DNA of 44,901 nucleotides from a virus, in the IMG/VR virus record IMGVR_UViG_3300022745_000056, positions 1 to 44,901 of that record. One strand, given 5' to 3'. Shown in pieces: positions 3,086-41,767 of this stretch. Every line of letters starts with the position of its first letter. Position 1 is the first letter of the stretch. The translations under genes and the position numbers were made by a program. The notes under the pieces were generated by a model. That model was given only the letters and a program-made list of their open reading frames with translations. It ran no database searches and was not told the DNA's origin.

Positions 3086-3254
3086 GATGCATTCCTTTCG
3101 AGAGAGATGAGTAGAGGATAGGTGGCTGATGAGTGCGCTGACAGCGCTCCACCCAACCCTGCTAGAGTGATTCAACGCCAGACTCAAGACTGCAAGAACT
3201 GCTCTGGAGTCAAATCACGCCGTGAGTGTTAGGTCAGAGCTGCTGGCCTGATTG

Positions 3255-5399: not shown

Positions 5400-5823
5400 G
5401 TTGGCCTCGATGTTAAAGAAAGAGGAATCCTCGTGAATAGAAACAGGAAACATGGTGCCATCAGTGCAGCGGCTGCCTTACTGATGGCCACTAGGCGACC
5501 TAATGATAAATCATGCCTTGATACCTGACATAAAAACAGATCATCCCATACAGCACTGACAGCATACTCCTGCCAATGCTGCTGGGACTCTAGGCAAGCT
5601 GTTTTGACGTCCAGTATCACAGTCAGCGTTACCACCCAGGGTAGGCACTCACGCACCATACGACTGTCACGTCTCCCCCTAGACTATTGTGAATTGAGGG
5701 AGTGCTGCATTTTAAGCATACGATGATCTGAGGGGACTATTGAGTCCCTTGTGCAGTGCAGAGGTTTTTGCAGTCCACACGAACGTCATCATTTCTTCAT
5801 TTAGCCTTTGGAGCTTTTTCACC
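5400..5823. other. 424-base divergent intergenic region
   Basis: This region separates the leftward sheath gene from the rightward virion-protein block and must hold promoters for both. It contains GCCATCAGT/ACTGATGGC (5457-5465 with 5480-5488) enclosing a GCAG/CTGC hairpin, in the leader of the sheath mRNA, and GGGACT/AGTCCC (about 5733-5748) in the leader of the rightward gene. Read leftward, TTTATCATTAG near 5500 and TTTTTATGTC near 5535 resemble the TTATC and TATG motifs seen elsewhere. No gene is apparent. Confidence 0.5.
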
Positions 5824-22185: not shown

Positions 22186-24387
22186 ATGACTGACGTTGCA
22201 CACATCCGTCAAGAGGCTAATCCTTTTGCGTACCAGCCGCAGGAGTACTCGCGCCAAATGAACCCGCTGGCCACGTACGTCGACGACGTTGCGCACTATC
22301 TGTCAATAAACACGGGCCGACCTGAAGAGGTGTGCCGTGAGTTTGTCTTACGGCAGATTGGAGAGAAGGGCCAGTTTGCGTTCAAGGACCCAGGCATCCA
22401 ATACTTTCAGCGTAAACCCAACGGAGACCGTGAAAAGAAAACCACCGGCGTGATGGCCTTTCTCAAGGAGATCTTGAATAACCGAGAGATCTTGTCGCCA
22501 TCCTGGGTGGCGTACACGCCACCTGACGTGGAGCGCTCTATCTTGGCCACTGACATGAAGGACAAGATCAAAGAGCGTAGCGCAGCCAAAAAAGAACAGT
22601 TCAAAGCGGAAGCTGCTCGCAATACGCCGGGACTTACACCGATGCAGATTGCTGCGTTTCTCTTTATTGAGAAGCTCAAGAAGGTGGAGCAAGGTGCTCG
22701 TAAGACCGCCAACAATGCCACCAGTGGCGGCACATGTACGCCCAGCACACCTCTATTTAACCCCACCACCCACACGACACTCACGAGCACCTGTCGCACC
22801 ACCAGCGCGTACGGTAATGCCAATAACGAGCGACTCCTAGGCGGTGGTAGGCACTACCGCAGCTACCAGATCACGCTCAACAACATCGTCTCCATCTGCA
22901 AGCACACGGACTATGCGCAGTTGGACGAGTGCATGCGCGTCTATGGGCTGGTCTATCCGACGGCTGAAGACGCGATGCAATGCATCCTGAGGTCGAGCCG
23001 CCTGTACTGGCCCGACACGCGGCTGGAAGGTAAACTCTACGCCTACTTGTGCAAGCTGAGCCCTCGTCAGCTGGCTGCGTTTGTCTACACCGGCGACCTC
23101 TACCACATTAAGAAGCATAACGACGCGTTCATGCGCGGCTTCATTGACGGTCTGTCAACCTACATCACGGGTGAGCATCCTGATCCCATGCGCACTATTC
23201 GTCGCGCCAACGACGAATACGTGAATCTGTGCCATCAGATCTGCACGCCCATCATGGCGGGCAAAGGCAAGGACTACACCAAGCTCACCCTGCAAGAGCA
23301 GTGCGATCTTGCACTGACCATGGAGTATGTGGCCAAGCACGTCGATCAGTACGGCTTGTTCATCCGCACGTTCATCCGCACAGATCACCTGCCGCCGTCG
23401 GTGGCGTATTTTCCGGATGCGGTCAGACGTATCGCCATCATGAGCGATACCGATTCCACCATCTTCACAGCGCAAGACTGGGTGCTGTGGTTCTTGAAGG
23501 ATGAGCACTGGGCAGGTGCCAAGGGCGTGTCCATCCAAGCCGCCATGACGTTCTTGGCTGCCAACAGCATTGTGCATATCCTGGCGACCATGTCGGGCAA
23601 CATCGGTGTCGAGACTGAAGAGATCCACCGCATCGCCATGAAGTCGGAGTATCGCTTTGACGTCTTTTGTCCGACCATGATTGGTAAGACGTACTTTGCC
23701 AACTACGGCGCTCAAGAAGGCAACATCAAGCCGGCAGGTCAGCCGGGTCGTGAGATCAAGGGCGTGCAGCTCAAGAACTCCAATGCGCCTGAGCATATCA
23801 ACAAGGCGGCTGAAAACATGATGTACGACATCATGGACAAAGTACAACGAGGCGAGAAGATCAGCATCGTGCAAGCATTGACGACCGTGGCGGATCTGGA
23901 ACGCACCATTATCTCATCCATTCAAAGCGGTGAGACCACGTATCTGCGGCGCGGCAGTGTGAAGACGAGGGACACCTATCGCAAGGAGATGGAAAAGAGC
24001 CCCTATGCTGCCCACCTGCTGTGGGAGGATGTCTTTGCCCCCAAGTACGGCAACATTGCGCCGCCGCCTTACAGCACGGCCAAAATCAGCTTGAAGACGG
24101 GCACCAAGCCCAAGTTCCAAGAATGGATCTTGGGCCTGGAGGACAAAGCGCTGGCCCAGCGCATCATCAATCACTTTGCCCGTGTGGGACGTGACAAATT
24201 CACCACCTTTCACGCTCCAGTAGAAGTGTTGCAAAGCCGTGGCATTGTGCCGGAGATCTCCCAGATTGTGGACTATCCCAAGATCGCTGGTGAGCTCACC
24301 AACTCGTTCAGACTGATTCTGGGTGTGCTGGGCTTTGATGCTCGCTGGGATCCCAACAACCCCAACCTCATCAGTCAGTACTACTGA
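22186..24387 (+). CDS. Family B DNA polymerase, C-terminal (palm/thumb) half
   Basis: This 733-residue protein carries C-terminal hallmarks of family B replicative polymerases. Motif C is MSDTDSTIF (DTDS 421-424), providing a catalytic Asp pair. A Kx3NSxYG-like motif B is seen as KTANNATSG (173-181), with Ala and Ser replacing the usual Ser and Tyr. The KxY motif is KTYFANY (501-507), and KGVQLKNSNAP (525-535) matches the conserved thumb/palm edge. No motif A (DxxSLYP) is visible in the first 170 residues and there is no 3'-5' exonuclease domain, so the N-terminal half is presumably a separate gene outside the window. The ATG has no Shine-Dalgarno and follows ATACCCCACC. It stands alone between terminators. 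Confidence 0.75.
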   Translation: MTDVAHIRQEANPFAYQPQEYSRQMNPLATYVDDVAHYLSINTGRPEEVCREFVLRQIGEKGQFAFKDPGIQYFQRKPNGDREKKTTGVMAFLKEILNNREILSPSWVAYTPPDVERSILATDMKDKIKERSAAKKEQFKAEAARNTPGLTPMQIAAFLFIEKLKKVEQGARKTANNATSGGTCTPSTPLFNPTTHTTLTSTCRTTSAYGNANNERLLGGGRHYRSYQITLNNIVSICKHTDYAQLDECMRVYGLVYPTAEDAMQCILRSSRLYWPDTRLEGKLYAYLCKLSPRQLAAFVYTGDLYHIKKHNDAFMRGFIDGLSTYITGEHPDPMRTIRRANDEYVNLCHQICTPIMAGKGKDYTKLTLQEQCDLALTMEYVAKHVDQYGLFIRTFIRTDHLPPSVAYFPDAVRRIAIMSDTDSTIFTAQDWVLWFLKDEHWAGAKGVSIQAAMTFLAANSIVHILATMSGNIGVETEEIHRIAMKSEYRFDVFCPTMIGKTYFANYGAQEGNIKPAGQPGREIKGVQLKNSNAPEHINKAAENMMYDIMDKVQRGEKISIVQALTTVADLERTIISSIQSGETTYLRRGSVKTRDTYRKEMEKSPYAAHLLWEDVFAPKYGNIAPPPYSTAKISLKTGTKPKFQEWILGLEDKALAQRIINHFARVGRDKFTTFHAPVEVLQSRGIVPEISQIVDYPKIAGELTNSFRLILGVLGFDARWDPNNPNLISQYY

Positions 24388-24455: not shown

Positions 24456-25559
24456 TCAGTCCAGCTTTTGACCGACAGCTTCAAAGATGGTGCGGCAATA
24501 GCCTTTCATCTCCTCGAAGACATCTGCGGTGAGTTGTTGCTCCATCATCTCCAGCGCACTCCACGTGCGCATAGACCGATAGGCTTGATTGATCTGCGTC
24601 ATGTTGGGGTTGCCCGGCTGCTTCTGGCTGAGCTGGATCATGAAGCTGAAATACTTGAGCCGCGCGCACATGAGCGCCCAGTCGACTTGCCGAGTGGACA
24701 TCATGGACGGCATCATCAGCGCATGGCGCTGTGTGTCTTTCATGAAGGAGGGCATGTTCATCATGAGCGCATCAAAGTTGTTGTGCACTCGCGTGAGACT
24801 CACCAGCGTGTAATCGATCACGTTGTCGATGTAGTAGAGCAGATCAGGCCGCATCAGGCTGTACTGCGTACATTCCGCTGTAGACACCGGGGTGCTGTTC
24901 TCATAGGCGATGAGTCGGTTGAGCAGTGACAGATCCGCAGTGCTTTGCAGCATGTTGGGAATGACGTAGCGAGACAAAAAGCAGTGCATGCTGTTGTCCG
25001 TCTCATTCTTCTTGGCGTCGATCAGGAATGCACGGTACTGCACAGCCAGCATGCCCACATTGATCAAGATGACGCTCAGGCCTTTCTCATCACCATAGTC
25101 TTTGCCATTGGGGATAGTGAGGCTGAAATCCGTCTTGGGGTGCAGCAACGGCCTGACGGCTACCACGTTCTTCCACTGGGAGTGGATCTTGGCAGCGTTG
25201 AAGCTGCCGTCATGGGCCAGCAAGATTTCAGGATCATTGGCCGAGTAGAACTGCCCGTGAAAGAGCATGCCTTTTTGCAGCGGTGTGGTCATGCGCAGTG
25301 CGCCTGCCACATGCAGGGCATCATCGCCCACCAACTCAGCAAACCGATCCAGCGGCATATGGTACGGCGTCTGGATGGACTTGAGTAGGCGGTTGAGAAT
25401 GTGCTGCGAATTGACCAGCAGGGCTGCACGTTCACGGAAATAGGCCAGCGTGGGTTGCAGCACTCGGGCGTTGAAGTTCTCCTTGGTATAGCCCCATTGT
25501 GGGGCCACCATGATCCCGCCCAGATGCGTGGGCGGCTGCGTGTAAAACGAGATAGCCAT
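24456..25559 (-). CDS. Unrecognised helical protein next to the shell gene
   Basis: This 367-residue protein is rich in Met, Leu and Gln and mainly helical, especially 240-367 (MMNMPSFMKDTQRHALMMPSMMSTRQ and later). The first 100 residues are mixed. No catalytic motif or signal is recognised. It is transcribed leftward away from the long intergenic region at 25560-25955 and ends at the symmetric terminator. A clear Shine-Dalgarno is missing. The context (between replication polymerase and shell gene) does not settle whether it is a virion or an intracellular protein. Confidence 0.5.
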   Translation of the reverse strand: MAISFYTQPPTHLGGIMVAPQWGYTKENFNARVLQPTLAYFRERAALLVNSQHILNRLLKSIQTPYHMPLDRFAELVGDDALHVAGALRMTTPLQKGMLFHGQFYSANDPEILLAHDGSFNAAKIHSQWKNVVAVRPLLHPKTDFSLTIPNGKDYGDEKGLSVILINVGMLAVQYRAFLIDAKKNETDNSMHCFLSRYVIPNMLQSTADLSLLNRLIAYENSTPVSTAECTQYSLMRPDLLYYIDNVIDYTLVSLTRVHNNFDALMMNMPSFMKDTQRHALMMPSMMSTRQVDWALMCARLKYFSFMIQLSQKQPGNPNMTQINQAYRSMRTWSALEMMEQQLTADVFEEMKGYCRTIFEAVGQKLD

Positions 25560-25955
25560 GAGCGTGTCCGTGTGATGAGGTCAGAGATGAATGATAGACT
25601 CACGTGATTTGTTTAATCATTCGCACGTACATATCTTATGGAGAGCTTCTGACGGAGTTCCCCTCAGGCTACGTGAGTGGTCTGAGAGCATGAAGTATGT
25701 GGGCGCGTTATCTGCACCTGGTTTGAAAAAACAGGATTGCAGTTGAGCATGTCCACTTATTATCTCTGTGGAGTAAGTCGCCTGACTTGACCCTCTCAGG
25801 TCAGTTTGATCATATCTCCGTCATCTCCCATTGGTGTGTGGTACAGCCCACTTTTGAAAAAAGAGCTGTGCCAGTCCTCATTTGAGCAGTAGCAAGCGCG
25901 CTCAAACACACCACCCCATCCTCCAAAGCGCTTCACCCTTTCAAAGGAAATCCCC
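25560..25955. other. 396-base divergent leader before the shell gene
   Basis: No gene is apparent. On the + strand there are two TTATC-type motifs (CGTTATC at 25706-25712 and CTTATTATC at 25756-25764) and an ACATATCTTATGG segment near 25630. The distance to the shell start (about 190-250 bases) implies a long 5' leader, unusual in this otherwise compact genome. Read leftward, TATCATT near 25595 resembles the motif before the sheath gene. Confidence 0.5.
25756..25764 (+). promoter_or_regulatory. CTTATTATC early-promoter-like motif for the shell gene
   Basis: CTTATTATCTCTG shares the TATTATC core with the motifs at 17921 and 39391. It is the best promoter candidate for the strongly codon-biased gene at 25956. 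Confidence 0.4.
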
Positions 25956-27710
25956 ATGCTGCAAGCAACCCACGCCCGACTGCGTCTCGCGCCCGTCTCG
26001 GGCCACTCCATGACCCGCGTCATGGAAGCCATCGAAAAGAACGGTCTCCTCAACGGCGGCGGCGGCGACTTCGAGTCCAAGGTCATCGCCCTTGACCGTA
26101 ACAACTCGTTCTCGGGCATGTACTACGGCGGCATCGCCATCGCCACCCGCTGCAAGGACGATGTCGCGTATTTCGTCTTCCTGATGACGAGCACCAATGG
26201 TGCTCCGCTCCAGAGCCAGACCGTCCCCGGCGCCGGCAACGCCCAGCTGGAGGTCCTGATGATGCCCGAAAAGGTCATCGACCAGGCCATGCACAACGCG
26301 GCCCAGTCGGTCGTGGCCAACGCCTATCGCGACACCCCCACGCTGATGAGCACCGGCGCCGCCGTCGTGCAGAACACCTTCAACTCCGATGACGGTGATG
26401 CCCTGGGCCAGCTGGTCAACATCGCCATCAGCGCGAACCTGATGGAGCTGCACCGCGTCAACAAGGTCGAGCACAGCTTCAAGCTGAGCGACGTGACCGG
26501 AAGCAAGTACAAGATCCAGCTGGGCGTCGAGCCGTGCGACGGCTTCACGCTGCTGGACGGCACGCCGCTGCACGCCACCCAGAAGATCACCATGACCGCG
26601 GCGCCGATCCAGCAGTCGACCAACCAGGACCGCCTGTCGATCAACACGCCCGACCAGGTCTTCCAGCTGGGCGAGGTGTACACCTACGTCGAACTGGTGG
26701 AGCGCGCTCCGACGCTGGTCCCCGGCCCCAACGGCGTGATGATCCCCAGCACCCAGCGCCTGCAGCCGCGCATCCACATCAGCCACGTCAAGCAGATCGA
26801 CCAGTTCGGCCTGACGATCGCACCCCTGGCCATCTGGGCGGCCATGCAGCTGATCCCCAACAAGCTGTGGGCGGTGCCGCTGTGCCCGCAGAAGTCGCAG
26901 CACGGCGACGTGAACATCCGCGACATCGGTGTCACCAACATGATCACCGAGTACGTCCCGGGTGGCGGCATCATCAACACCGATGATCCCAACTTCACCA
27001 TCGCCGAGATGGCCAAGCTGCTGGATGCCACGGTCACGCAAGACCCGTACATCGTCATCGACCTCGCCGGCAGCGCTGCCGAGCAAGCATGGCTGCGCCC
27101 GCTGATCCTGGCCAGCCAGGGCGACCAAGGCGCCATCGACCAGCTGTGGACCGCGGCCGAACTGCTCACCGGCAAGATGAGCGCCGTCACCAACGGCACC
27201 AAGCTCAACCTGACCGTGCAGCAAGGCACCACCACCGGCGCCAACGAAGTCGAGTACGGCGGCTACTATCCGGACAAGTCCGACAAGTCGGGCCGTCTGA
27301 AGAGCCTCGCCAACCTGGACATGCTGGCTGTCGGCGTGCTGTCCAACGGCGACCCGGCCGTCGTGCGCGCCTGGCAGGAGACGACCATGGCCAACGGTGC
27401 TCTGCACCCGCTGGACCGTGCGATCCGCCGTCATCACCTGCGCACCCAGTTCACGCACTCGGCAGTGGCCAACCACTACGTGCGCACCGTCACGGTGTCG
27501 GCTCAGGCCGCTGCTGCGCTGACCGCTGCCGTGGCCGCCTCCGGCGTCGTCGTGGGCATGCACACGCCGCCCAACCCGTTCATGCAGCAGGTGCAACAGT
27601 ATCTGTTTGGCGGGGGCGTGATGGCCAACCACGCCATCGGTGCGGCCAGCGTGCAGACCTTCTACGCGCAGTCGAACCAGGCCGCGGCCTTCAACAACCT
27701 GGTGGTCTGA
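25956..27710 (+). CDS. chmA: Probable phage-nucleus shell protein (chimallin, phiKZ gp54-like)
   Basis: This 584-residue protein sits directly upstream of the RNAP beta' N-terminal subunit, as the shell gene gp54 sits beside gp55 in phiKZ. Chimallin subunits tile into a square lattice enclosing phage DNA and excluding host nucleases. Supporting observations: length near that recalled for known chimallins (about 600 residues), strongly C/G-ending codons unlike its neighbours (high expression), and a one-gene unit with a long leader and two terminators. The N-terminal part has ESKVIALDRNNSFSGMYYGG (about 40-59); the C-terminal tail has a Gly-rich FGGGVMANHAIG segment and ends FNNLVV. AAAGGAAA precedes the start. 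No sequence signature was verified; the main alternative is a major virion protein. Confidence 0.6.
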   Translation: MLQATHARLRLAPVSGHSMTRVMEAIEKNGLLNGGGGDFESKVIALDRNNSFSGMYYGGIAIATRCKDDVAYFVFLMTSTNGAPLQSQTVPGAGNAQLEVLMMPEKVIDQAMHNAAQSVVANAYRDTPTLMSTGAAVVQNTFNSDDGDALGQLVNIAISANLMELHRVNKVEHSFKLSDVTGSKYKIQLGVEPCDGFTLLDGTPLHATQKITMTAAPIQQSTNQDRLSINTPDQVFQLGEVYTYVELVERAPTLVPGPNGVMIPSTQRLQPRIHISHVKQIDQFGLTIAPLAIWAAMQLIPNKLWAVPLCPQKSQHGDVNIRDIGVTNMITEYVPGGGIINTDDPNFTIAEMAKLLDATVTQDPYIVIDLAGSAAEQAWLRPLILASQGDQGAIDQLWTAAELLTGKMSAVTNGTKLNLTVQQGTTTGANEVEYGGYYPDKSDKSGRLKSLANLDMLAVGVLSNGDPAVVRAWQETTMANGALHPLDRAIRRHHLRTQFTHSAVANHYVRTVTVSAQAAAALTAAVAASGVVVGMHTPPNPFMQQVQQYLFGGGVMANHAIGAASVQTFYAQSNQAAAFNNLVV

Positions 27711-27732
27711 TCGGCGCCGGCTGTGAGTGAAT

Positions 27733-27758
27733 CAATGAGGGCTTACCGGCCCTCATTG
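27733..27758 (+). terminator. 10-bp hairpin after the shell gene
   Basis: CAATGAGGGC (27733-27742) pairs with GCCCTCATTG (27749-27758) around TTACCG, followed by AGTTTGCTC. It is the first of two terminators after the shell gene. Confidence 0.7.
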
Positions 27759-27791
27759 AGTTTGCTCTAGTGCTTTCTCGATGGGCATCAT

Positions 27792-27853
27792 AAATCCCCT
27801 CCTGCTGCGCGACTTGCCAAAAGCGAGTCCGTGGCAGGAGGGGATTTTTTCTT
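27792..27853 (+). terminator. 14-bp terminator with T6 after the shell gene
   Basis: AAATCCCCTCCTGC (27792-27805) pairs with GCAGGAGGGGATTT (27834-27847), followed by TTTCTTT. Two strong hairpins in a row suggest heavy transcription of the shell gene that must be kept out of the RNAP gene. Confidence 0.85.
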
Positions 27854-27868
27854 TGCTGACCCAAAAAA

Positions 27869-27885
27869 TCATAAGCCCACATCAT
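27869..27885. repeat. 17-base repeat, copy 2
   Basis: This is an exact copy of TCATAAGCCCACATCAT from 17202-17218. It lies 71 bases before the RNAP beta' start. Its presence upstream of two distant genes suggests a shared promoter or binding site. Confidence 0.6.
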
Positions 27886-27956
27886 ACATTGGTGTAAGGT
27901 CAGTGAAATGATTTTGCCCAGACATTTAATCGCGCACTAACCCAGTAGAGGAATCA

Positions 27957-29495
27957 ATGGGATGTTATATCGGCATCAAGTCGCCCATGGGAGCCATCGC
28001 CAAGATGGCAGGACCCATGACGGTGCTCAACGACATGCCTATCGTCACGGAGGAAGATCGCCAAATGATCGACCGCATGACGACGCGCATGTTCGAGCAC
28101 ACGGACATGTTCAGCAACACGCCGTCATGCCTGTGCGGCGCACTGCGTCGCGGTGATCTGATCGGACAGACGTGTCATTCGTGCGGCACCAAGGTGACCG
28201 AGACCTTTGGTGAGCCGCTCGACTCGATGGTGTACATCCGTGCACCTGAAGGCGTGGAGGATTTGATCTTACCTGGTGTGCTGCAGATGCTGCTGTTGCG
28301 TACCACGGACGCGCACTTTCAATACGTGCGCTGGGTGATCGATCCCAAGTACAACCCCAATCGCTCCAATCACTCCTACATTGCGCAGGAGCTGATCAGC
28401 ATGGGGCTGCAGCGCGGCTACAATTACTTCGTCAAAAACTTTGACGACGTCATGGACAAGATCTGCACGTACATCTGGCGCAAACGCGCTGGTGGCAAAC
28501 GTGCGTTCAATCCGAACGACATCTCCAGTGTAGCTCTGGCTAAGCTGATGCAGGTGATCAAGTACGAGCGCCATCAGCTCTTCAGCAAGTTCTTGCCGCT
28601 GCCCAACCGTGTCATGTTGACCATGGAGACCACCTCCAGCGGCACGTACATGAACAAGTGCGTGCCGTTGATCACGGATGTGATCCGCAGCATGCGCGGC
28701 ATTGACACGCCCATCAGCGAGAAGTCCCCTCGCGTGAAGGAAAACCAGACAGCCACCGCCCTCATCCGTCTGGCCAACTACTACTACAAGATCTACGAAG
28801 AAGATCTGGGCGGCAAGTTTGGCGCGTTTCGCAAACACATCTTCGGCGCACGGGTGGACTACTCAATGCGCTGTGTGATCTCCTCGATCACAGTACCTCA
28901 CCAGTACGATGAGCTGGAGCTGCCGTGGCGAGCATCGGTGGCCATGTTCTCGATCCACCTGATGAACAAGCTGTTCAAGCGCGGCATGATCATGCGGGAG
29001 GTCTTCGAGACCATCTACGCAGCCAGCTACATGCCCACACAGCTGATCAAGGATCTGTTCCAGGAACTGATCAATGAAAGCCGTGATGGCTGCATCTACG
29101 TCTACTTCAACCGCAACCCCTCGCTCAAGCGAGGGTCGTGTCAGCGCTTTCGTGTCAAGTGCATCAAGGACGATCCGGAAGACGTCACCATCGGCCTGCC
29201 GGTGCTGGATACCTCGCCGTTCAACGCCGACTATGATGGCGATGCCATGAACTTGTACCTGGCTGCGGACAACTTCATTGCAGACGCCTTTGCGCGACTG
29301 GATCCGCATCTGAACTTGCCGGACGACAATGCGCCGCTGTCCTTCTCGGCGCTGGCCAACTTGCCCCGCCCGGCCATCTGCACCTTCTCCAACTGGTACA
29401 TGGATGAAGAACCCCTCAACCAAGCGACTGCTGAAACTCAAGCGTTCTTGCAACGCATGATGAGCGGTCAACTCACCAGGAGCCCGAATGCATAG
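27957..29495 (+). CDS. RNA polymerase beta' N-terminal subunit (phiKZ gp55-like)
   Basis: This 512-residue protein contains the catalytic aspartate loop of multisubunit RNAP, FNADYDGDAMNLY (422-434), which binds the active-site magnesium. Just before it, YFNRNPSLKRGSCQRF (382-397) matches the NRAPTLHR region of beta', and FGARVDYSMRCVI (296-308) matches KRVDFSGRxVI. An N-terminal CxC-x12-CxxC set (C58, C60, C73, C76) resembles the beta' zinc finger. Length is close to that recalled for phiKZ gp55, and other RNAP pieces are at 39473 and 41768, so this belongs to a split multisubunit enzyme, most likely the non-virion RNAP that reads later phage genes. AGAGGAA precedes the start, and the next gene overlaps by 8 bases. 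Confidence 0.88.
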   Translation: MGCYIGIKSPMGAIAKMAGPMTVLNDMPIVTEEDRQMIDRMTTRMFEHTDMFSNTPSCLCGALRRGDLIGQTCHSCGTKVTETFGEPLDSMVYIRAPEGVEDLILPGVLQMLLLRTTDAHFQYVRWVIDPKYNPNRSNHSYIAQELISMGLQRGYNYFVKNFDDVMDKICTYIWRKRAGGKRAFNPNDISSVALAKLMQVIKYERHQLFSKFLPLPNRVMLTMETTSSGTYMNKCVPLITDVIRSMRGIDTPISEKSPRVKENQTATALIRLANYYYKIYEEDLGGKFGAFRKHIFGARVDYSMRCVISSITVPHQYDELELPWRASVAMFSIHLMNKLFKRGMIMREVFETIYAASYMPTQLIKDLFQELINESRDGCIYVYFNRNPSLKRGSCQRFRVKCIKDDPEDVTIGLPVLDTSPFNADYDGDAMNLYLAADNFIADAFARLDPHLNLPDDNAPLSFSALANLPRPAICTFSNWYMDEEPLNQATAETQAFLQRMMSGQLTRSPNA

Positions 29496-30075
29496 TCCCA
29501 ACGACATTTTCTCAGCGCTCTTGTTTCCTGGACAGACCAAAGCCAACGCTTCGTTCTTCCAGACCCAGATCGCACAGCTGCAGGCCATGCCCGTGCATGA
29601 CCAGCTGCAGCAGCAGTGGATCGAGCAGGCCACTGCCAACTACAATCACAGCTACGGCGACGAAGCCCTGCGGCGCCAGCGTGAGATCTTGCGTGACTAC
29701 GGCGTGGATTCGGCTGCGCAATACAACGCCATCGTGCAGATCTTGGATCTGCACTTGCTGCAACAAGCCAGCCCAGTCATGCAACACATGATCATGGCCT
29801 GTCCGGAGATCGACAAGCTCTACCAGAACCAGTGCATCGACGGCTACAGCGCGACCTATGTGCGTGACGCCAATTCGGTGCGTGAGCGCCAGTACGCGGT
29901 GCTGGATGGGGTGGTGTTGGAGGACGGTGATTATGTCACCCACCACACAGACATCTTGGAAGATGATGCCAACAAGCTCACCCTCTACGAAAAGAACGAC
30001 ACGCTCCTCACCTGGGAAGCAGCCCTGCTGCTCATCGCTGACGGGTACGACCCCACCAACGTCAGTGGTGACTGA
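29488..30075 (+). CDS. Unrecognised protein coupled to RNAP beta'
   Basis: This 195-residue protein starts 8 bases before the RNAP stop, with CCAGGAG upstream, so it is coupled to the RNAP subunit. It is mostly helical and Gln-rich (QLQAMPVHDQLQQQWIEQATANYN), with a C-terminal part containing GVVLEDGDYVTHHTDILEDDANKL. No family is recognised. Coupling suggests a partner of the transcription machinery, but this is not shown by sequence. Confidence 0.5.
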   Translation: MHSPNDIFSALLFPGQTKANASFFQTQIAQLQAMPVHDQLQQQWIEQATANYNHSYGDEALRRQREILRDYGVDSAAQYNAIVQILDLHLLQQASPVMQHMIMACPEIDKLYQNQCIDGYSATYVRDANSVRERQYAVLDGVVLEDGDYVTHHTDILEDDANKLTLYEKNDTLLTWEAALLLIADGYDPTNVSGD

Positions 30076-33176: not shown

Positions 33177-33307
33177 TAGTCTGACCACTACCAACTGCCC
33201 TCACTCGGCTGGTAAGTCGCCCATACTCCAACGAGATGGGCGACCCAGTAGAGGTATGCCGTACTGACCATTTTCCCACCCCTCCAACCTGTAAGGAGCA
33301 CCTTGCT

Positions 33308-34042
33308 GTGAACGCACCCGCACAAAAACCCAAAGACATCACCGCCAATTCCAACATCCGCTTGTCTGCGCCGTGCCCGTCGGCCCGTGGCAAGTGGTCC
33401 AAGCTCAACTTCAGCCAGTGGATGGGCAATCCCCGGCTGGAGGTGATGACTGAAGATCCCAACGATCAGAACAACAACCGCGGCCGCATCACGGCGCCGA
33501 TGGACATCATCACCTTCACGGCGGTGGTCAACAAGATCCGTGAGCTGTGCGACAGCCCGCAAGAGATCAAGTGGGTGTTCGAGTTCGCCAAGCCCCAACG
33601 CAACAACGGCCAAGGCCCGAGCGAGCCGATGAAGGTGGCCAGCGTCATCGTGGGCCGCAACGCCGAAGGCGTGGTGTTCATCTGCGTCAAGGATGACGCC
33701 ATCTCCGGCCGGCCGGTCATTCCGTTCCCCTTTGCGCTGACCAACCGCTACACCAAGCTGCGCAAGGCCAACGGCGAAGAGCTGAGCAAGAGCGAGCTGA
33801 GCGTCATCGCTGCGCGCGCCTGGTGTGATGCGGCCATCCGCATCGTCACCCAGCTGTGCGTCGACCGCTACGAGCACCCGCAACCCCCGCAAGGTGGCTG
33901 GGGCAACCGCGGTGGCGGCGGTGGTGGCGGTGGCGGCTGGAACAACCGTGGTGGCAACGGGGGCGGCAATGGCGGCGGCAACTCGGGCGGTGGCTCGAGT
34001 GGCGGTGACGCTGCTGGCTTCAGCGAAGACATCCCCTACTGA
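33308..34042 (+). CDS. SSB-like single-stranded DNA-binding protein
   Basis: This 244-residue protein has a folded N-terminal region with alternating strands (for example FTAVVNKIRELCDSP and MKVASVIVGRNAEGVVFICV), then a linker of about 50 residues made almost entirely of Gly, Asn and Trp, and an acidic tip ending SEDIPY. That tip matches the DDDIPF-type tail with which bacterial SSBs recruit partner proteins. The fold itself is not provable by eye. It would coat single-stranded DNA during replication. The start is GTG at 33308, with AAGGAG 9 bases upstream. Codon use is GC-rich, in line with an abundant protein. Confidence 0.75.
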   Translation: MNAPAQKPKDITANSNIRLSAPCPSARGKWSKLNFSQWMGNPRLEVMTEDPNDQNNNRGRITAPMDIITFTAVVNKIRELCDSPQEIKWVFEFAKPQRNNGQGPSEPMKVASVIVGRNAEGVVFICVKDDAISGRPVIPFPFALTNRYTKLRKANGEELSKSELSVIAARAWCDAAIRIVTQLCVDRYEHPQPPQGGWGNRGGGGGGGGGWNNRGGNGGGNGGGNSGGGSSGGDAAGFSEDIPY

Positions 34043-34238: not shown

Positions 34239-35777
34239 ATGCAGCTGAGTTATGGCGATGATCCGAAGTTTGCTGCCGTGTGGGTCAACCATGGCGACAA
34301 AACGCCTATCCCGTTCACGGGCACGTTGATTGACCGCTCACGCACACGTGAAGTGTCGACGGACACGACGTTTCAGTTCATCAACGAGTGGCTGAGCACA
34401 CAGCCTACCGCCACTCAGGAATCCATGTTCGAGCTTATGGTGTTAATGCGCCATGCGCTGGAGACGCAATTCGTCACGATCGAATGCATCGGTGTGCTGC
34501 AAGACTACCTTGGCCAGCTCTACAAGCTGGTCGACATGGTCAACCTGCGCCAGTTCGTCACGCAGCACAAGGAGATCCACATCCCCTCCAGCATCATCGT
34601 GACGTTTGACCAGAGCACGCAGATCTCTGGCACGCAGAGCCAAACCTATGACCGCGAGCAGTACCTGGATCTGATCACGCTATCGCTGGCGCTGCGCTTA
34701 GCGTATCCGATCTTCGTGAACTTCATCAGCGCGCATTCGCGCGTGGTGGGTAACACCTACAAGGAGTTTCGAGCGCTCTCGCTGCTCAACCGCAGCAAGC
34801 TCATCAGCGACCGTGCCATGGACAAGCTGCGACTCTACGTCGACACCAGCATGTCACGCAGCCAGATCAAGGATGCTGATTCCATCAATGTCAGCGGCTG
34901 CGGCATGGATGACTTCCCCAAGATGATCCTGGCCGACATCGTGGTGAAGAAGCTCTCTTGCGCGGACGTACGTGGTACGGACTCCAAGGCCACCATGATC
35001 AGTGCCATCTGGCAACTGGTCAAGGGGCGTCTGGACATGCGCAACTTGCCGCCTACGCAGCGAGTCGTCTACAAGTCAGGCACTGAAGGTGGCAATGATG
35101 GCGGCGGTGGCGGCAACTCTGGCATCGAAGAAGTCAAGACGCGAGGGGCTTTTTCCATCGCAGACGGTGCTGTCATTCAGGTGCAGTGCGATCGCTGGCG
35201 TGACCTGGCGTTTCGTTTGGAGCCGCAGCTCAACCCTGAGTTTCTGGAAGCCGTCGTGAGCGCCACAACGGATGCGCTCAGCACCGTCATCATTTCGCGC
35301 TGCCAGCTCGTGCTCTGCGGCTGGGTGATCTCGCCAGTGTTCTCCACACAAGCGCTGGTGGAGATCAACAAAGAGCAGCTCAGCCGCATGATCGGGTTGT
35401 CGAGTGCGGTGCTCTGGCACCGAGGCTACCACTTGCTCTCAGGACTGGTGGGGGCCACGTGTCTGCCGCAAGACGTGGCCATCGGTGGTGCAGCATTCAC
35501 GCCGCGTAACCGCATCACTGATGAGCGAATGCAGAAAATCGAGCTCTTATATTCTCACTTGAAGCCCAAAGAGCGTGCCGATGTGAGAACAAAAAAGCCC
35601 CACATGATCCTGACAGCGATCAACACGCTGGCGGGGCTCTTTGCTTCGGAGAAGTGGCGTTTCAGTCTCCCGGATGATCAGGTCAAGGTCTTGACCGGGT
35701 CTCCGCATATTCGAGTCATCCCCGTGCACTCGGATATCGCCAACGTACTGGCCCAGTACGTGATCGATCATCAGTAA
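34239..35777 (+). CDS. Candidate phiKZ gp68-type RNA polymerase subunit
   Basis: This 512-residue protein is helical with no cellular RNAP motif. It is proposed as the counterpart of phiKZ gp68, a non-virion RNAP subunit that lacks cellular homologues, because its length is close to that recalled for gp68 (about 520) and it sits between the gp55-like and gp71-74-like genes in the same order and strand as in phiKZ. Visible features: AALSLALRLAYPIFVNFI-like helix (about 150-165), SGCGMDDFPKMILADIV (about 220-236) and a flexible Gly/Asn insertion, GGNDGGGGGNSG (about 285-296). AAGGAG precedes the ATG, and a CATATTAC motif lies upstream. Identity is by synteny only. Confidence 0.5.
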   Translation: MQLSYGDDPKFAAVWVNHGDKTPIPFTGTLIDRSRTREVSTDTTFQFINEWLSTQPTATQESMFELMVLMRHALETQFVTIECIGVLQDYLGQLYKLVDMVNLRQFVTQHKEIHIPSSIIVTFDQSTQISGTQSQTYDREQYLDLITLSLALRLAYPIFVNFISAHSRVVGNTYKEFRALSLLNRSKLISDRAMDKLRLYVDTSMSRSQIKDADSINVSGCGMDDFPKMILADIVVKKLSCADVRGTDSKATMISAIWQLVKGRLDMRNLPPTQRVVYKSGTEGGNDGGGGGNSGIEEVKTRGAFSIADGAVIQVQCDRWRDLAFRLEPQLNPEFLEAVVSATTDALSTVIISRCQLVLCGWVISPVFSTQALVEINKEQLSRMIGLSSAVLWHRGYHLLSGLVGATCLPQDVAIGGAAFTPRNRITDERMQKIELLYSHLKPKERADVRTKKPHMILTAINTLAGLFASEKWRFSLPDDQVKVLTGSPHIRVIPVHSDIANVLAQYVIDHQ

Positions 35778-35809
35778 CTTCAATTCCCCAACCCACAGGA
35801 GTGTTTCTC

Positions 35810-37270
35810 ATGCAACAGTTCAATCAGTTCGCCGCCTACACCATCCTCAGCGCGTCGGTGCTGCAGCTCGTGCTGGCGGAAGAAGCCGGCTTGCAGCCGA
35901 TGCACCTGATGCCGTACCAACTGGTGGACTCCACCGACACGCACAGCAACATCATGCAGGCGGTGCAGCGTGATGCGCTGCTCACCCCCACGGTAGTGGC
36001 CGGGGTGATGGGCGAGGCGCTGCGTCCCAACATGAACAGCGGGGTGGTTGCCCCGATCACCAATGGCTGGGGCACTCGGCGCTTTCGCTTCGGCATGAAG
36101 GTGCGCGTGGAAAACGCCATGGGTTCCGTGTTTCTCTACATGATCACGGGCTACACGGACTACTCGGATGTCAGCTTTGCGGGCAGCGTGGATCCGAACA
36201 TGGTGCTCAACATCAACAGCTACCAGAAGATCCACGAGCAGTCGGCCGCAGCCAGCATCACGCTGCCGGTGGGCATCAACGAGATCCAAGCGGGCAGTGA
36301 CGTGCTCAAGAACACCAACGACGCCAGTCAGGTGGCAGGCCTCATGCTGCAGCGCCCCAGCGACATCTACCTGATCTCGCAGGACGCAGCCTTTGCTCAG
36401 GCCAGTGGCAACCAGTTGGGGCTGCATTCGTCGACCATGTGCCCGCTGGGTGCTACGGCTCAGCTGGCCAGCAGCTTCCAGACCAGCCCGTGCCGCTGGG
36501 CCAGTGACTATCTGCTGGCCGCCACTGCGCCCACGGCTGGCCTCAATGGTGATCCGGCCATGGAGCACAGCGAGCGCGCGTCGCGGCTGCAGACTGCCTC
36601 GCTGGTCAAGGAAGATTTCTTCCGCATGCTCACGCAGATGCTGCATGACACGGGCTCTCCGGCTGCAGCACGCCTGACCATCTCGCAGCTGCAAGAAATC
36701 GACCCCACGCTGCTGCAGCGCACGGTGGTCGTGCCTTTTGCGCCGGATGCCAACATGGGCGCGCTGGTGACGGGTGACAACCGACAACTGGCCACCATTG
36801 CAGCCATGTACGCGCAGAGCGTGCCGGCGTACATGAACATGTGCGGCCTCTCGAGCGTGGAGTTCATCCAGATGGCGCGGGGCAATACGCTGGATCAACG
36901 CCCGGGCCACTGCGTGGTGACCAGTGCCATGACCTTCGTGGGCAACCGACCGGTGGAGCAGCTGACCTACGCGTTCCAGCACGCCATGCAGTCCGAGATG
37001 TTCCCGGCCGCGTCGTTCAGCCACAACTATCCGTTCTCGATCCGGATGACGTGTGCTCTGTTCGGCTACGCCCACATCGACATCAGCGACCTGTTTGGTA
37101 CCACGGAGAAGTACTCCTTCCCCATCTACGCCAACAGCCCGTGGAACCCCATGGTGACGGCTGATCCGAACGGCTACATCCAACTGGCCTCGGGCATGAA
37201 TGCTCTGGCCAACACCGCTCAACTGCAGATGCCCAACCACAACTACCAGAACTATGACGTGCTGAGCTGA
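35810..37270 (+). CDS. Abundant-looking unknown, possibly phage-nucleus import factor
   Basis: This 486-residue protein has a beta-rich first half (FRFGMKVRVENAMGSVFLYMITGY, about 85-108) and a mixed second half. Codon use is strongly GC-ending, suggesting high expression. ACAGGAG precedes the ATG at 35810. It directly follows the gp68-type gene; in phiKZ that position is held by gp69, reported as Imp1, a protein-import factor of the phage nucleus (PicA in phiPA3). This is the only ground for the suggestion and no sequence match was checked. A virion structural protein is an equally plausible reading from composition. Confidence 0.4.
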   Translation: MQQFNQFAAYTILSASVLQLVLAEEAGLQPMHLMPYQLVDSTDTHSNIMQAVQRDALLTPTVVAGVMGEALRPNMNSGVVAPITNGWGTRRFRFGMKVRVENAMGSVFLYMITGYTDYSDVSFAGSVDPNMVLNINSYQKIHEQSAAASITLPVGINEIQAGSDVLKNTNDASQVAGLMLQRPSDIYLISQDAAFAQASGNQLGLHSSTMCPLGATAQLASSFQTSPCRWASDYLLAATAPTAGLNGDPAMEHSERASRLQTASLVKEDFFRMLTQMLHDTGSPAAARLTISQLQEIDPTLLQRTVVVPFAPDANMGALVTGDNRQLATIAAMYAQSVPAYMNMCGLSSVEFIQMARGNTLDQRPGHCVVTSAMTFVGNRPVEQLTYAFQHAMQSEMFPAASFSHNYPFSIRMTCALFGYAHIDISDLFGTTEKYSFPIYANSPWNPMVTADPNGYIQLASGMNALANTAQLQMPNHNYQNYDVLS

Positions 37271-37348
37271 TCTCACTCGTCTGACCTGCCTGTTGCTGTA
37301 GCATGACACGTGCTACAGCAGCCTTTCACCCCACTCACAAGGATACTC

Positions 37349-38911
37349 ATGTCGAAACTTGCCAAGCTGTATGAGGACAGCCTGAAGCTGGCCTTCATCA
37401 CGGTCGACCATCAGGGTCGACTGTACCAGAGCTACGGGGACGTCCCGGAGCCGCTCATGAGCGCGGACAAGCCGATCTACCTCAGCTCGGCCAACCGCAT
37501 CGTCACGGACGAGTTCCACGCGTACCATCCGCTGGCCGAGTCCATGGGCCAGCCGGAGCATGCCGTGGCCGCGCTCATCCGGCGCTACTACACCAAGAGC
37601 ACTGCACTGCGCTTGGTCAGTCTCATCGGATCCGTGATCGCGTTTTCCGAGAACGTGGATCAGCATCCGAACGCCAACCCCGAGCAAAGCAACATGCTGC
37701 GTCAGCTGGGGGTGTTCGAACCCAACCTGGGCAGCACGTGGACTGACCTGGTGCGCAAGGTGTCGGCTCAGCCGACGCTCTCCATCATGAACGTCTACTG
37801 CCGTAACGGCGCCAAGATCGCCGGACGCGAATACCTGCGCGGAGCCATCGTCACCTTCGGCATCTACGAGATGCTCAAGACCTGGCTGGGTGGTGGCGAA
37901 AAGCCGGCCAAGCTCGGTGTAGGCAGCAAGAAGAAAGCGGAAAACATCATCCGCGTCTTTGAGTACATTCTGCCGGAAATCACCACCGAATCGCCCGAGA
38001 AGGCCATGGGCTATTCGCGGGGCTGCTCCGATCCGCAGGGTCCTCGCTGGGTGGCGCTCATGCGCTCACTCGGCGCCATTCAAGAGCGCATCAACTCGGT
38101 GGCGCAAGAGCTGGGCGCGTTTTGCTTTGAGCCCGATAAAATCATCGTGGACCTGGACTGGATACCCCAGCTCGATACGCTCGGTGAACTCCGTGCTGAG
38201 ATCCTCAGCTGGAACTCCTCCAAGTCCCTGGCGGCTCCTGCACCGGCCACTGCAGCGCCTGCTGCAGCGCCTGCGGCTCGTGGCGGGCTGCAGACTCGCA
38301 ACGCCTACGCGAGCTCCGCCCCACCTGCCCCGCAGCTGCAAGTGCAAGCGCCTCCGCCACCGGCGCCCGCATTGGAGCCTGCTGCTGCACCGGCACCCAA
38401 CCGCGTGAGCATTGGTGCTCGTCCGAGCGGCCTGATCCAGCAGCAGCCTGGTCAGTACACGGCTTACCAGCCGCCGGCTCCCCCGCCGCCGGCAGGCGCA
38501 CAGTACACGTACTCACCCGACGGGCGGCACATTCTCCTCAATGGCCAGTGGGTGCCGGCACCGCCGCAAGCACCGCCGCAGCCCCAGATGACCTATTCGC
38601 CTGACGGACGGTTCGTCCTTTACAACGGTCAGTGGGTGCCGGCACCGCCGCAACAGCAGCAGCAATATCCTGGCCAGGCGTCTCACCTGCCGGTGCGCGC
38701 CAGTCTCTACCCGCCGGCGGCTCCGGCGTACACGAACGGCTATGCGCCGGTGCAGAACCCCATGGCCAACATGCCTGCCACTGCCTATGCGGCAGCGGTC
38801 AACTCTGGCCAGTACGTGCCGGTGGGCGTGAGCAACAACGCCATCCAGCAACACCAGACCATCAACTACGCCGCACCGGTCAACGCCTTCCACGGCGTAG
38901 GCAGCGTGTAA
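37349..38911 (+). CDS. Two-part protein with Pro/Ala/Gln-rich tail and YSPDGR repeats
   Basis: The first ~285 of 520 residues form a folded, mainly helical domain (AAALIRRYYTKSTALRLVSLIGSVIAF-type segments, ILPEITTESPEKAMGYSRG). The remaining ~235 are low complexity, rich in Pro, Ala, Gln and Tyr, and contain two copies of a 20-residue unit, YSPDGR..L.NGQWVPAPPQ (38510-38569 and 38594-38653). Such tails are usually disordered and can bind partners or phase-separate. AAGGA lies upstream of the ATG at 37349. It follows the 486-residue gene by 78 bases and ends at a strong terminator. Function unknown. Confidence 0.5.
   Translation: MSKLAKLYEDSLKLAFITVDHQGRLYQSYGDVPEPLMSADKPIYLSSANRIVTDEFHAYHPLAESMGQPEHAVAALIRRYYTKSTALRLVSLIGSVIAFSENVDQHPNANPEQSNMLRQLGVFEPNLGSTWTDLVRKVSAQPTLSIMNVYCRNGAKIAGREYLRGAIVTFGIYEMLKTWLGGGEKPAKLGVGSKKKAENIIRVFEYILPEITTESPEKAMGYSRGCSDPQGPRWVALMRSLGAIQERINSVAQELGAFCFEPDKIIVDLDWIPQLDTLGELRAEILSWNSSKSLAAPAPATAAPAAAPAARGGLQTRNAYASSAPPAPQLQVQAPPPPAPALEPAAAPAPNRVSIGARPSGLIQQQPGQYTAYQPPAPPPPAGAQYTYSPDGRHILLNGQWVPAPPQAPPQPQMTYSPDGRFVLYNGQWVPAPPQQQQQYPGQASHLPVRASLYPPAAPAYTNGYAPVQNPMANMPATAYAAAVNSGQYVPVGVSNNAIQQHQTINYAAPVNAFHGVGSV
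38510..38653 (+). repeat. Two 20-codon direct repeats in the Pro-rich tail
   Basis: Codons 38510-38569 and 38594-38653 both encode YSPDGR, two variable residues, L, one variable residue, NGQWVPAPPQ. The DNA differs at many third positions, so the duplication is old or maintained by selection on protein. Confidence 0.85.
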
Positions 38912-39472: not shown

Positions 39473-41689
39473 ATGACCAATCCCAATGCGGACCGCCAGA
39501 AACTGCACCGTCACTTTCGTGACGTCAAGTTTGATGACCCCATTGAAATGGGCAAACGCTACAACCGGCGAAATGCAGTCTTTGAGACCAGCCCTGCGTT
39601 GCTGGGTGCTAATGCCCTGAACTCCTGGGTGGTCAATACCTCGAGCGCACGCTCGCAGATGACCTCTAGCCATTTCGGCCAACTGCCCGTGCTGCTCTAT
39701 CCCACCGACCGACGCATCGTGGCCGGTGTGGAGTTTGAGCATGCCAAGTACACGTACAGTGTCGTGGCACCGTGCGACCTCACGGTGTTGCACGTCATCC
39801 CGTACTATCAGCGGTCTATCGACCGAGACGGCATCAATCACAACCCGGTGACGTACGTCATCTACCAAGATGCTGAAACGCGTGAGCTGGGTGTGTTGGA
39901 GCTGCCGGAGTTCCACAACGAAGGCAGCAAGTTTGGCTTTCGCTTTGAGCGCACGCCGGCGTACCTCAAAGCCACCACACCCATGACGGGACGCCTGACC
40001 AAAGGCGAGGTCATCCTCAGGGCGCCTTGCGTCTCTGCCGAAGGAGACTTGCAAACTGGCATCCAGCTCAACGTGGCCTACATGACGCTGCCGGGCACCG
40101 CAGAGGACTCCATCATCATCTCGGAGGAGGCTGCTCGGCTGCTGAGCACGCGCACCTACATGACGGTGACGGCCGAGTTCGATGACGAGCACATGCCGCG
40201 CATGCTCTATAAAGACGCCATGGGTAACCCCAAACCCTTTCCGGACATCGGTGAGAAAGTGGCTGAGAACGGCCTGCTCATGGCCGTCATGAACCGCAAG
40301 CTCACCGAAAACGATGCCGACCTGATGGCGCCGTTTGAGCGCAGCATGCGGGCACTGCAACAAGTCGATCATATCTTCGATACGCCCTACTACGCTCCTC
40401 CGGGCGGCTTGATCGTCGATCTGCGCGTAGATCACCAACACCGCTACCGCGACTCGAGCCCGCTGGACGCTCAGGCTGAGAAGTACTTCAGCGCTGCGCA
40501 GCGCTTCTCAGAAAACATCACCAACGTCTACAAGACCTATCAGCGCACCTACGGTGTCGCACCGGTGCTCAAGCCTGAGCTCTCCAACCTGATGGTGAAC
40601 TGCCACATTGTCAACCCGCCCAATGCCGATGTGCGCCGAGCCGTGCTTGTGCACAAGCAAGACTCGCTGGCCAAGTGGCGCATCACCTTTGTCATCGAGT
40701 ACGTGCGCCCGGCCTGTATCGGCAGCAAGGGCACCGACGGCCATGCTGGCAAGGGTGTGGTCACCTCCATCTGGCCGACGGAGAACATGCCGGTGGATGC
40801 TGCAGGGGTGCGTGCCCATGTGATTCAAGATCCCCACGGCACCATCAACCGCATGGATCCGGGCCGCAGCATCGAGCAGTACGAGGGCTCAGCCATGGCC
40901 AAGTTTGACATGGACATCTGCACCATGCTCGGCATCAAGTACGGCACCACCGTCATGAAGGCTGAGGCCATGCTGCGAGTCATGGACCCGGCCAAAGTGG
41001 ATGCGGCGTTTGAGTTTGCCAAGGAGTTTTACCGACTCTTCAACGAAGAGACCTACCAAGGTCTCGTGCAAGGCGTCATCGGTGTCGACAAAGCATCCTG
41101 GCTCGCACCGATCGTCTACAACGGCGTGCGTATCTGGCTGCCCACGGACAACCCCAAGTACAGTCCGCACGTGGTGATGGACATCGAGCGCAGCATCTAC
41201 CAGCCCGTCTACGGGCCGGTCAAGTACATTGGTATCACGGGCATTCCTCGTACCACCAAAGGCCGTGTGCGTATCGGCACGGTGTACTTCTACTTGCTGA
41301 GCAAGATCGGCGATGATTGGAACGCCGTCTCGGCTGGCCCGCGCCAAGCGCACGGTGTGCCGGCAGCCATGACCGCGTCGTGCAAGTACGTGCTGCCCTG
41401 GCGGGCTCAGCACACGCGCTGCTTTGGTGAAACTGAGACGCGCGTGGTGGGCGGCAATGCCGGTGGGGAGGTGATGGCTGAGATCATGGACCGCAGTTGC
41501 TCGCCGGCCAGTGCGCGACTGGTTGCGTACACGCTCATGACGCACAACACGCCCACCAACATCCCACGGATCATCGACCGACACGTCCATCCGTTTGGTG
41601 GCAGCAGCCCCCTGGCTATGGCGCATCACGAGATGCACTGTGCCGGTCTGGAGTTCAAGTATCGCCGCACAGGAGTGTTGCCGCGCTGA
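39473..41689 (+). CDS. RNA polymerase beta C-terminal subunit (phiKZ gp71-73-like)
   Basis: This 738-residue protein matches the C-terminal half of RNAP beta. YMTLPGTAEDSIIISEEAAR (203-222) corresponds to the YMPWxGYNFEDAIVISER region, and GSKGTDGHAGKGVV (417-430), followed by PTENMPVDAAG, corresponds to the KxxGRHGNKGVIS...EDMP motif that lines the catalytic site. Later, INRMDPGRSIEQ (458-469) matches the PSRMNIGQxLE segment. The N-terminal part of beta is absent and is presumably a separate gene elsewhere, as in phiKZ (gp123). AAGGAGA precedes the start, and the beta' C-terminal gene follows after 78 bases. Confidence 0.88.
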   Translation: MTNPNADRQKLHRHFRDVKFDDPIEMGKRYNRRNAVFETSPALLGANALNSWVVNTSSARSQMTSSHFGQLPVLLYPTDRRIVAGVEFEHAKYTYSVVAPCDLTVLHVIPYYQRSIDRDGINHNPVTYVIYQDAETRELGVLELPEFHNEGSKFGFRFERTPAYLKATTPMTGRLTKGEVILRAPCVSAEGDLQTGIQLNVAYMTLPGTAEDSIIISEEAARLLSTRTYMTVTAEFDDEHMPRMLYKDAMGNPKPFPDIGEKVAENGLLMAVMNRKLTENDADLMAPFERSMRALQQVDHIFDTPYYAPPGGLIVDLRVDHQHRYRDSSPLDAQAEKYFSAAQRFSENITNVYKTYQRTYGVAPVLKPELSNLMVNCHIVNPPNADVRRAVLVHKQDSLAKWRITFVIEYVRPACIGSKGTDGHAGKGVVTSIWPTENMPVDAAGVRAHVIQDPHGTINRMDPGRSIEQYEGSAMAKFDMDICTMLGIKYGTTVMKAEAMLRVMDPAKVDAAFEFAKEFYRLFNEETYQGLVQGVIGVDKASWLAPIVYNGVRIWLPTDNPKYSPHVVMDIERSIYQPVYGPVKYIGITGIPRTTKGRVRIGTVYFYLLSKIGDDWNAVSAGPRQAHGVPAAMTASCKYVLPWRAQHTRCFGETETRVVGGNAGGEVMAEIMDRSCSPASARLVAYTLMTHNTPTNIPRIIDRHVHPFGGSSPLAMAHHEMHCAGLEFKYRRTGVLPR

Positions 41690-41717: not shown

Positions 41718-41748
41718 GGGACTGCATGTGAATGCAGTCCCATATTAC
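41718..41748 (+). promoter_or_regulatory. GNRA hairpin abutting a CATATTAC motif
   Basis: GGGACTGCAT (41718-41727) pairs perfectly with ATGCAGTCCC (41732-41741) around GTGA. The last C of the stem begins CATATTAC (41741-41748), 20 bases before the beta' start. It could be a terminator after beta with a promoter for beta' fused to it, or a processing site. Confidence 0.55.
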
Positions 41749-41767
41749 TTCTTCGTGTGTGACCACC

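Follow-up and report, generated by a model that had tools for sequence, protein, structure and literature searches.

The window analyzed here is the whole of a 44,901-base (44.9 kb) virus fragment, IMG/VR record IMGVR_UViG_3300022745_000056, to which all statements about the record as a whole refer. Between a gene of the phiKZ gp52 type, transcribed divergently, and the gp55-type gene for a subunit of the non-virion RNA polymerase (nvRNAP), it contains an open reading frame (ORF) of 584 codons that very probably encodes chimallin (ChmA), the shell protein of a phage nucleus. The initial annotation had singled out this ORF as a strongly codon-biased, one-gene unit immediately upstream of the polymerase gene, and each part of that description held. 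The ORF begins with ATG and is preceded by an in-frame stop codon, with 21 sense codons in between, none of which is a start. The leader carries an AAGGAA motif resembling a ribosome-binding site, which also precedes the shell genes of two related contigs, L021 and L024. Upstream, 396 bp of noncoding sequence separate the ORF from the gp52-type gene; downstream, two hairpins follow it in a 246 bp gap before the polymerase gene, in support of a unit consisting of one gene. The larger hairpin with its T6 tract resembles an intrinsic terminator and would close the shell transcription unit downstream. Near the shell gene, no promoter was detected in a scan for sigma-70 sites, and the phiKZ early-promoter word has zero occurrences in the window.

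The identification of the protein, which the initial annotation had guessed from the neighboring gene and signs of expression, is now supported by sequence profiles, the predicted fold and synteny. The protein matches PHROG_4795, annotated as nuclear shell protein, with E 4.5e-36 over positions 130-662 of the 677 in the profile, and scores 44.5 bits against Pfam PF25677 (Chimallin_Phikzvirus), for which the curated cut-off is 27; matches to PF25677 were found in 0 of 14 control genomes. The solved chimallins are matched with E 1e-91 to 1e-143 by a profile that combines the window protein with 45 environmental relatives. This result is not independent of the starting point: the relatives' shell ORFs had been found with a profile of the window protein and known chimallins, and one of the relatives, L100, is PhiPA3 itself.

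The AlphaFold2 model of the protein, built with no templates, has a mean predicted local distance difference test score (pLDDT) of 82 and a predicted template modeling score of 0.84. A Foldseek comparison with chimallin structures had been proposed as a check in the initial annotation, which named an HK97 capsid fold or another fold, or a clear chimallin gene elsewhere, as evidence to the contrary. In that comparison, every solved chimallin in the PDB was matched with E 1.9e-24 to 5.2e-28, the next chain being at 0.03, so that chimallins are the only matches with E < 0.001. VIA-align aligned the model to all solved chimallins with Z 30.4-34.4 and a root-mean-square deviation of 3.0-3.6 over 469-497 residues, and the structural alignment spans model residues 14-543. 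In this model, the chimallin fold accounts for the whole core of the protein. The next-best fold by VIA-align is that of AtaT, a tRNA-acetylating toxin to which the C-terminal domain of chimallin has been reported to be structurally related (PMC9365700); AtaT/TacT toxins, which have the GNAT fold, match the C-terminal domain of the model alone and weakly (Z up to 6.5 over ~140 residues). The lists from Foldseek and VIA-align, both headed by chimallins, contain no match to the HK97 capsid, which speaks against that fold although absence from such lists is weaker than a strict exclusion, and the window holds only one chimallin.

Several observations weigh against this identification or against the assembly predicted from it. 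Identity to cultured chimallins is about 17-23%, and a search of the PDB with the single sequence returned no chain at E < 10; because of these two results, the assignment to the family rests on profiles, fold and synteny. Furthermore, the residues of the N-terminal segment (NTS) and the C-terminal segments (CTS), which would build the lattice, are not conserved in sequence and are modeled without confidence. Single-sequence searches also detected zero relatives of the shell protein in IMG/VR and, among phages, one weak match, in LucasX, and an alignment of all chimallins contained no stretch conserved enough for scanning.

The codon bias of the shell gene is extreme. With a GC content at third codon positions of 0.909 and an effective number of codons (ENC) of 29.3, it is the most strongly biased among the 33 genes tested; ENC ranges from 34.5 to 51 in the 32 others, one of which, the plus-strand ORF 3252-5528, is itself probably a shadow of a sheath gene on the opposite strand, and the PicA homolog has the second lowest value (34.5). 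This bias suggests heavy expression. Strong codon bias is typical of capsid genes as well, and a virion structural protein, such as the major capsid protein, might have been misread as a shell protein through its abundance and codon usage. However, given the lack of an HK97 match, the restriction of Foldseek PDB matches with E < 0.001 to chimallins and the position of the gene within the nvRNAP block rather than among head genes, we regard this possibility as exceedingly improbable. The shell gene also contains zero TTA, CTA and TCA codons and, because of this, the antisense frame is free of stops: a 563-aa ORF, 25941-27632(-), is open across nearly the whole shell gene, and a similar 570-aa ORF lies opposite the shell gene in L021. 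That the 563-aa ORF is the real gene is scarcely credible, however, because the profile and structure matches belong to the plus-strand frame, and we rejected it as a codon-usage shadow of the shell gene. Like the shell gene, the genes for the PicA homolog and the gp67 homolog, presumably ChmC, lack these three codons and have low ENC values (34.5 and 37.7, respectively), a hint that shell-associated proteins are highly expressed.

The gene neighborhood (Table 1) corresponds to the core block of phiKZ. The order of DNA polymerase (+), gp52-type gene (-), shell gene (+), gp55-type gene (+) and gp59-type gene is common to phiKZ, RAY, Goslar, Eowyn, SA002, PhiEaH1, Moabite and Proteus phage 10, some of which carry small insertions; the order from the polymerase to the gp55-type gene is also found in Noxifer, and synteny with PhiPA3 agrees. 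In particular, the shell genes of 201phi2-1 (gp105), PhiPA3 (gp53, PhuN), phiKZ (gp54) and Goslar (gp189) all share the position between the gp52-type and gp55-type genes; their products are about 18-19% identical to the window protein in the full alignment, and the solved ones share its two-domain fold (Z 30-34). Downstream, the window is colinear with the phiKZ core block through gp62, gp65 (SbcD), gp66, gp67, gp68, gp69, gp70, gp71/73, gp74 and a helicase. The N-terminal part of the nvRNAP beta subunit, which in phiKZ is split over gp71 and gp73 with gp72 between them, is encoded in the window by one ORF.

Table 1. Coordinates of the assigned features in the window
Feature	Position	Strand	Basis or remarks
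Divergent family B DNA polymerase (phiKZ gp50-type)	22186..24387	+	PHROG_2927 E 2.5e-218; PF20286 E 2e-215
phiKZ gp52-type protein, divergent from shell gene	24456..25559	-	PHROG_3938 E 3.7e-63; phiKZ gp52 family
Ribosome-binding-site-like AAGGAA	25944..25949	+	ends 6 nt 5' of shell ATG; sequence
Shell gene chmA, very probable chimallin (ChmA; major phage-nucleus shell protein)	25956..27710	+	584 aa; PHROG_4795, PF25677, AlphaFold2 model
NTS-like N-terminal segment, residues 1-13	25956..25994	+	no disordered N-tail before it; alignment to 201phi2-1 numbering
Two-domain chimallin core	25992..27563	+	alpha/beta N-terminal domain, residues 13-173; GNAT-like C-terminal domain, residues 174-536
C-terminal tail, 48 aa, residues 537-584	27564..27707	+	CTS1/CTS2-like stretches; low model confidence
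12-pair hairpin 3' of shell gene	27732..27759	+	terminator scan
Strong intrinsic-terminator-like hairpin, ~25 pairs, then T6	27785..27860	+	-47.7 kcal/mol, z -9.4
nvRNAP beta' N-part (phiKZ gp55-type)	27957..29495	+	512 aa; PHROG_2987 E 6.3e-122; Rpb1_2 E 7e-13; catalytic NADYDGD present
phiKZ gp59 homolog	29488..30075	+	PHROG_3254
phiKZ gp67 / PhiPA3 gp61 homolog, shell-localized	33236..34042	+	PHROG_3284 E 2.4e-46; phiKZ gp67 family
phiKZ gp68 / PhiPA3 gp62 homolog, nvRNAP subunit	34239..35777	+	PHROG_3209 E 8.6e-87
PicA/Imp1 homolog (phiKZ gp69), nuclear protein importer	35801..37270	+	PHROG_3141 E 9.1e-49; phiKZ gp69 family
phiKZ gp70 / PhiPA3 gp64 homolog, shell-localized	37310..38911	+	PHROG_3520 E 1.7e-34
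nvRNAP beta N-part (phiKZ gp71-73)	39473..41689	+	unsplit 738-aa ORF; PHROG_3295 E 1.1e-166
nvRNAP beta' C-part (phiKZ gp74)	41732..43909	+	PHROG_3015 E 5.3e-126

Among the products of this block, PicA (gp69) is an essential nuclear import factor (PMC11087766), and PhiPA3 gp61, gp63 and gp64 localize to the shell (PMC10643120); these correspond to phiKZ gp67, gp69 and gp70, the equation of gp70 with gp64 being based on gene order following gp69/gp63. Membership in the Chimalliviridae is judged by such features, and also by a genome above 200 kb and by two multisubunit RNA polymerases, virion and non-virion. In the window the chimallin lies inside the conserved core block, in the conserved order, and is co-encoded with the PicA import factor, which is conserved alongside ChmA. 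No virion RNA polymerase subunit was identified in the window, where the non-virion subunits are present, and no match to tubulin/PhuZ was found there; PhuZ occurs in about two thirds of chimallin-encoding phages and is not required for membership in the family (PMC10299810). ChmB has been recognized in Pseudomonas phages only (PMC10643120), and its locus may lie beyond the ends of the window.

Two observations concern other parts of the window. On the minus strand, 3255-5453 matches PF20961 (phiKZ_gp29PR) with E 1.7e-38 and 132.9 bits, the cut-off being 26, and probably encodes a phiKZ gp29-type tail sheath protein; the 758-aa ORF 3252-5528 on the opposite strand, for which neither Pfam nor PHROG gave a match, is probably its shadow. 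In addition, the 8-mer CGGCATAA recurs at 2139, 11675, 13932, 13955, 34058 and 38931 on the plus strand and at 622, 11729, 22112 and 30162 on the minus strand. The copies are mainly intergenic (CGGCATA occurs in 8 of 19 intergenic regions, a raw count), often with inverted-repeat-like sequence shortly 3', and the 8-mer is possibly a promoter, processing or terminator-linked element.

The particular feature of the window chimallin is the absence of the N-tail. In 201phi2-1 numbering, 13 residues precede the folded core in this protein, 11 in that of L021 and 17 in that of L024, compared to 33 to 151 in the remaining 61 chimallins (33-61 in those of 201phi2-1, PhiPA3, phiKZ and Goslar). Even with a start directly behind the upstream stop, no more than 34 residues would precede the core of the window protein. 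The NTS-like stretch, which was assigned by position and not by conserved residues, is as long as the NTS, with 0 of 7 aligned residues conserved, and pLDDT is below 50 at residues 1-15. At the other end, the C-terminal tail of 48 residues is of normal length (37-62 in other full-length chimallins), and its CTS1- and CTS2-like stretches are identical to those of 201phi2-1 in 4 of 20 and 1 of 8 positions, respectively. Removal of the N-tail (residues 1-47) from the 201phi2-1 protein left its incorporation into the shell unimpaired (P = 0.41), whereas self-assembly in vitro was lost when the NTS or CTS was deleted (PMC9365700). A tail-less chimallin is thus compatible with a working shell.

The relatives were collected by alignment of the DNA polymerase, which yielded 244, and the chimallins were taken from the sequence flanking the 80 best; within the flank covered, the shell ORF was present in 56 of these 80 IMG/VR contigs, chosen by DNA polymerase alone. 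In a quick LG+G4 tree of the chimallins, the deep branches of which are weak, the window protein and that of L021 (IMG/VR contig 3300048672_000900) form a clade with a Shimodaira-Hasegawa-like approximate likelihood ratio test value of 100 and a stem of 0.90 changes per column. The L021 chimallin (580 aa) is the nearest relative, with 31% identity over 551 residues; it also lacks the N-tail, and its gene has gp52-type, gp55-type, gp59 and SbcD neighbors in the same order. Nevertheless, the path between the two in the tree amounts to 1.82 changes per column, and their DNA polymerases are 55% identical. The closest cultured phage, by both DNA polymerase (42.5%) and gp55-type polymerase subunit (34.6%), is the Chimalliviridae-like Burkholderia phage FLC9, which has the same block; its chimallin, however, carries a 70-residue N-terminal extension and belongs to a different clade. 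The window chimallin is thus a divergent member of a known family, from a lineage without a cultured member. Three contigs of >200 kb with this type of DNA polymerase (L103, L106 and L107) are binned as Sulfuriferula, Rhodoferax and a gammaproteobacterial metagenome-assembled genome and are probably phage genomes in bacterial bins; the Sulfuriferula, Rhodoferax and other bins of the polymerase relatives are at best a hint at the host.

Such divergence could also mean that the protein is a chimallin homolog by descent that forms no closed nucleus in this lineage, its role being an open lattice or some other structure. The long branch leading to the window and L021 proteins, the missing N-tail and the lack of sequence conservation in the lattice-building segments are all in line with this explanation. 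However, the N-tail is the part that the 201phi2-1 protein can do without for incorporation, the C-terminal tail is of normal length, the codon bias suggests heavy expression, and the homologs of PicA, gp67 and gp70 are retained in order, which would be hard to explain if there were no closed compartment. We therefore consider the loss of a closed nucleus very unlikely. Homology and the co-encoded core genes strongly argue that this phage would build a proteinaceous nucleus.

By analogy with 201phi2-1 and Goslar, ChmA would be made early and in large amounts. Four protomers would be joined into a tetramer through the N-terminal segment, and neighboring tetramers through the C-terminal segments; the resulting square lattice, flexible and a single protein in thickness, would surround the replicating phage DNA and exclude host nucleases. 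Inside the nucleus, the phage nvRNAP, with subunits encoded next to the shell gene, would carry out transcription, and proteins would be imported via the PicA homolog, encoded 8 kb downstream. As the disordered N-tail is almost absent from this protein, only the short NTS and the C-terminal segments would be available for assembly. On balance, we lean towards the view that the window and L021 stand for a deep lineage without cultured members, in which the N-tail was lost and the nucleus is built with a minimal protomer, possibly with other shell partners or another start of assembly. Such a protomer would parallel, in nature, the 201phi2-1 protein engineered to lack the N-tail.

Environmental Chimalliviridae, including IMG/VR contigs, have already been reported (PMC10299810), so that one more environmental member is not surprising. 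The novelty is modest and consists in the low identity to cultured chimallins and in the tail-less clade shared with L021. Chimallin is a bacteriophage solution for keeping a genome apart within the cell. A natural variant that is divergent and tail-less, in an environmental lineage, gives an indication of the parts that may be dispensable and widens the range of sequences available for the study of the shell. Moreover, the conservation, even here, of the core block with PicA and two other shell-localized proteins supports these proteins as core partners of the shell.

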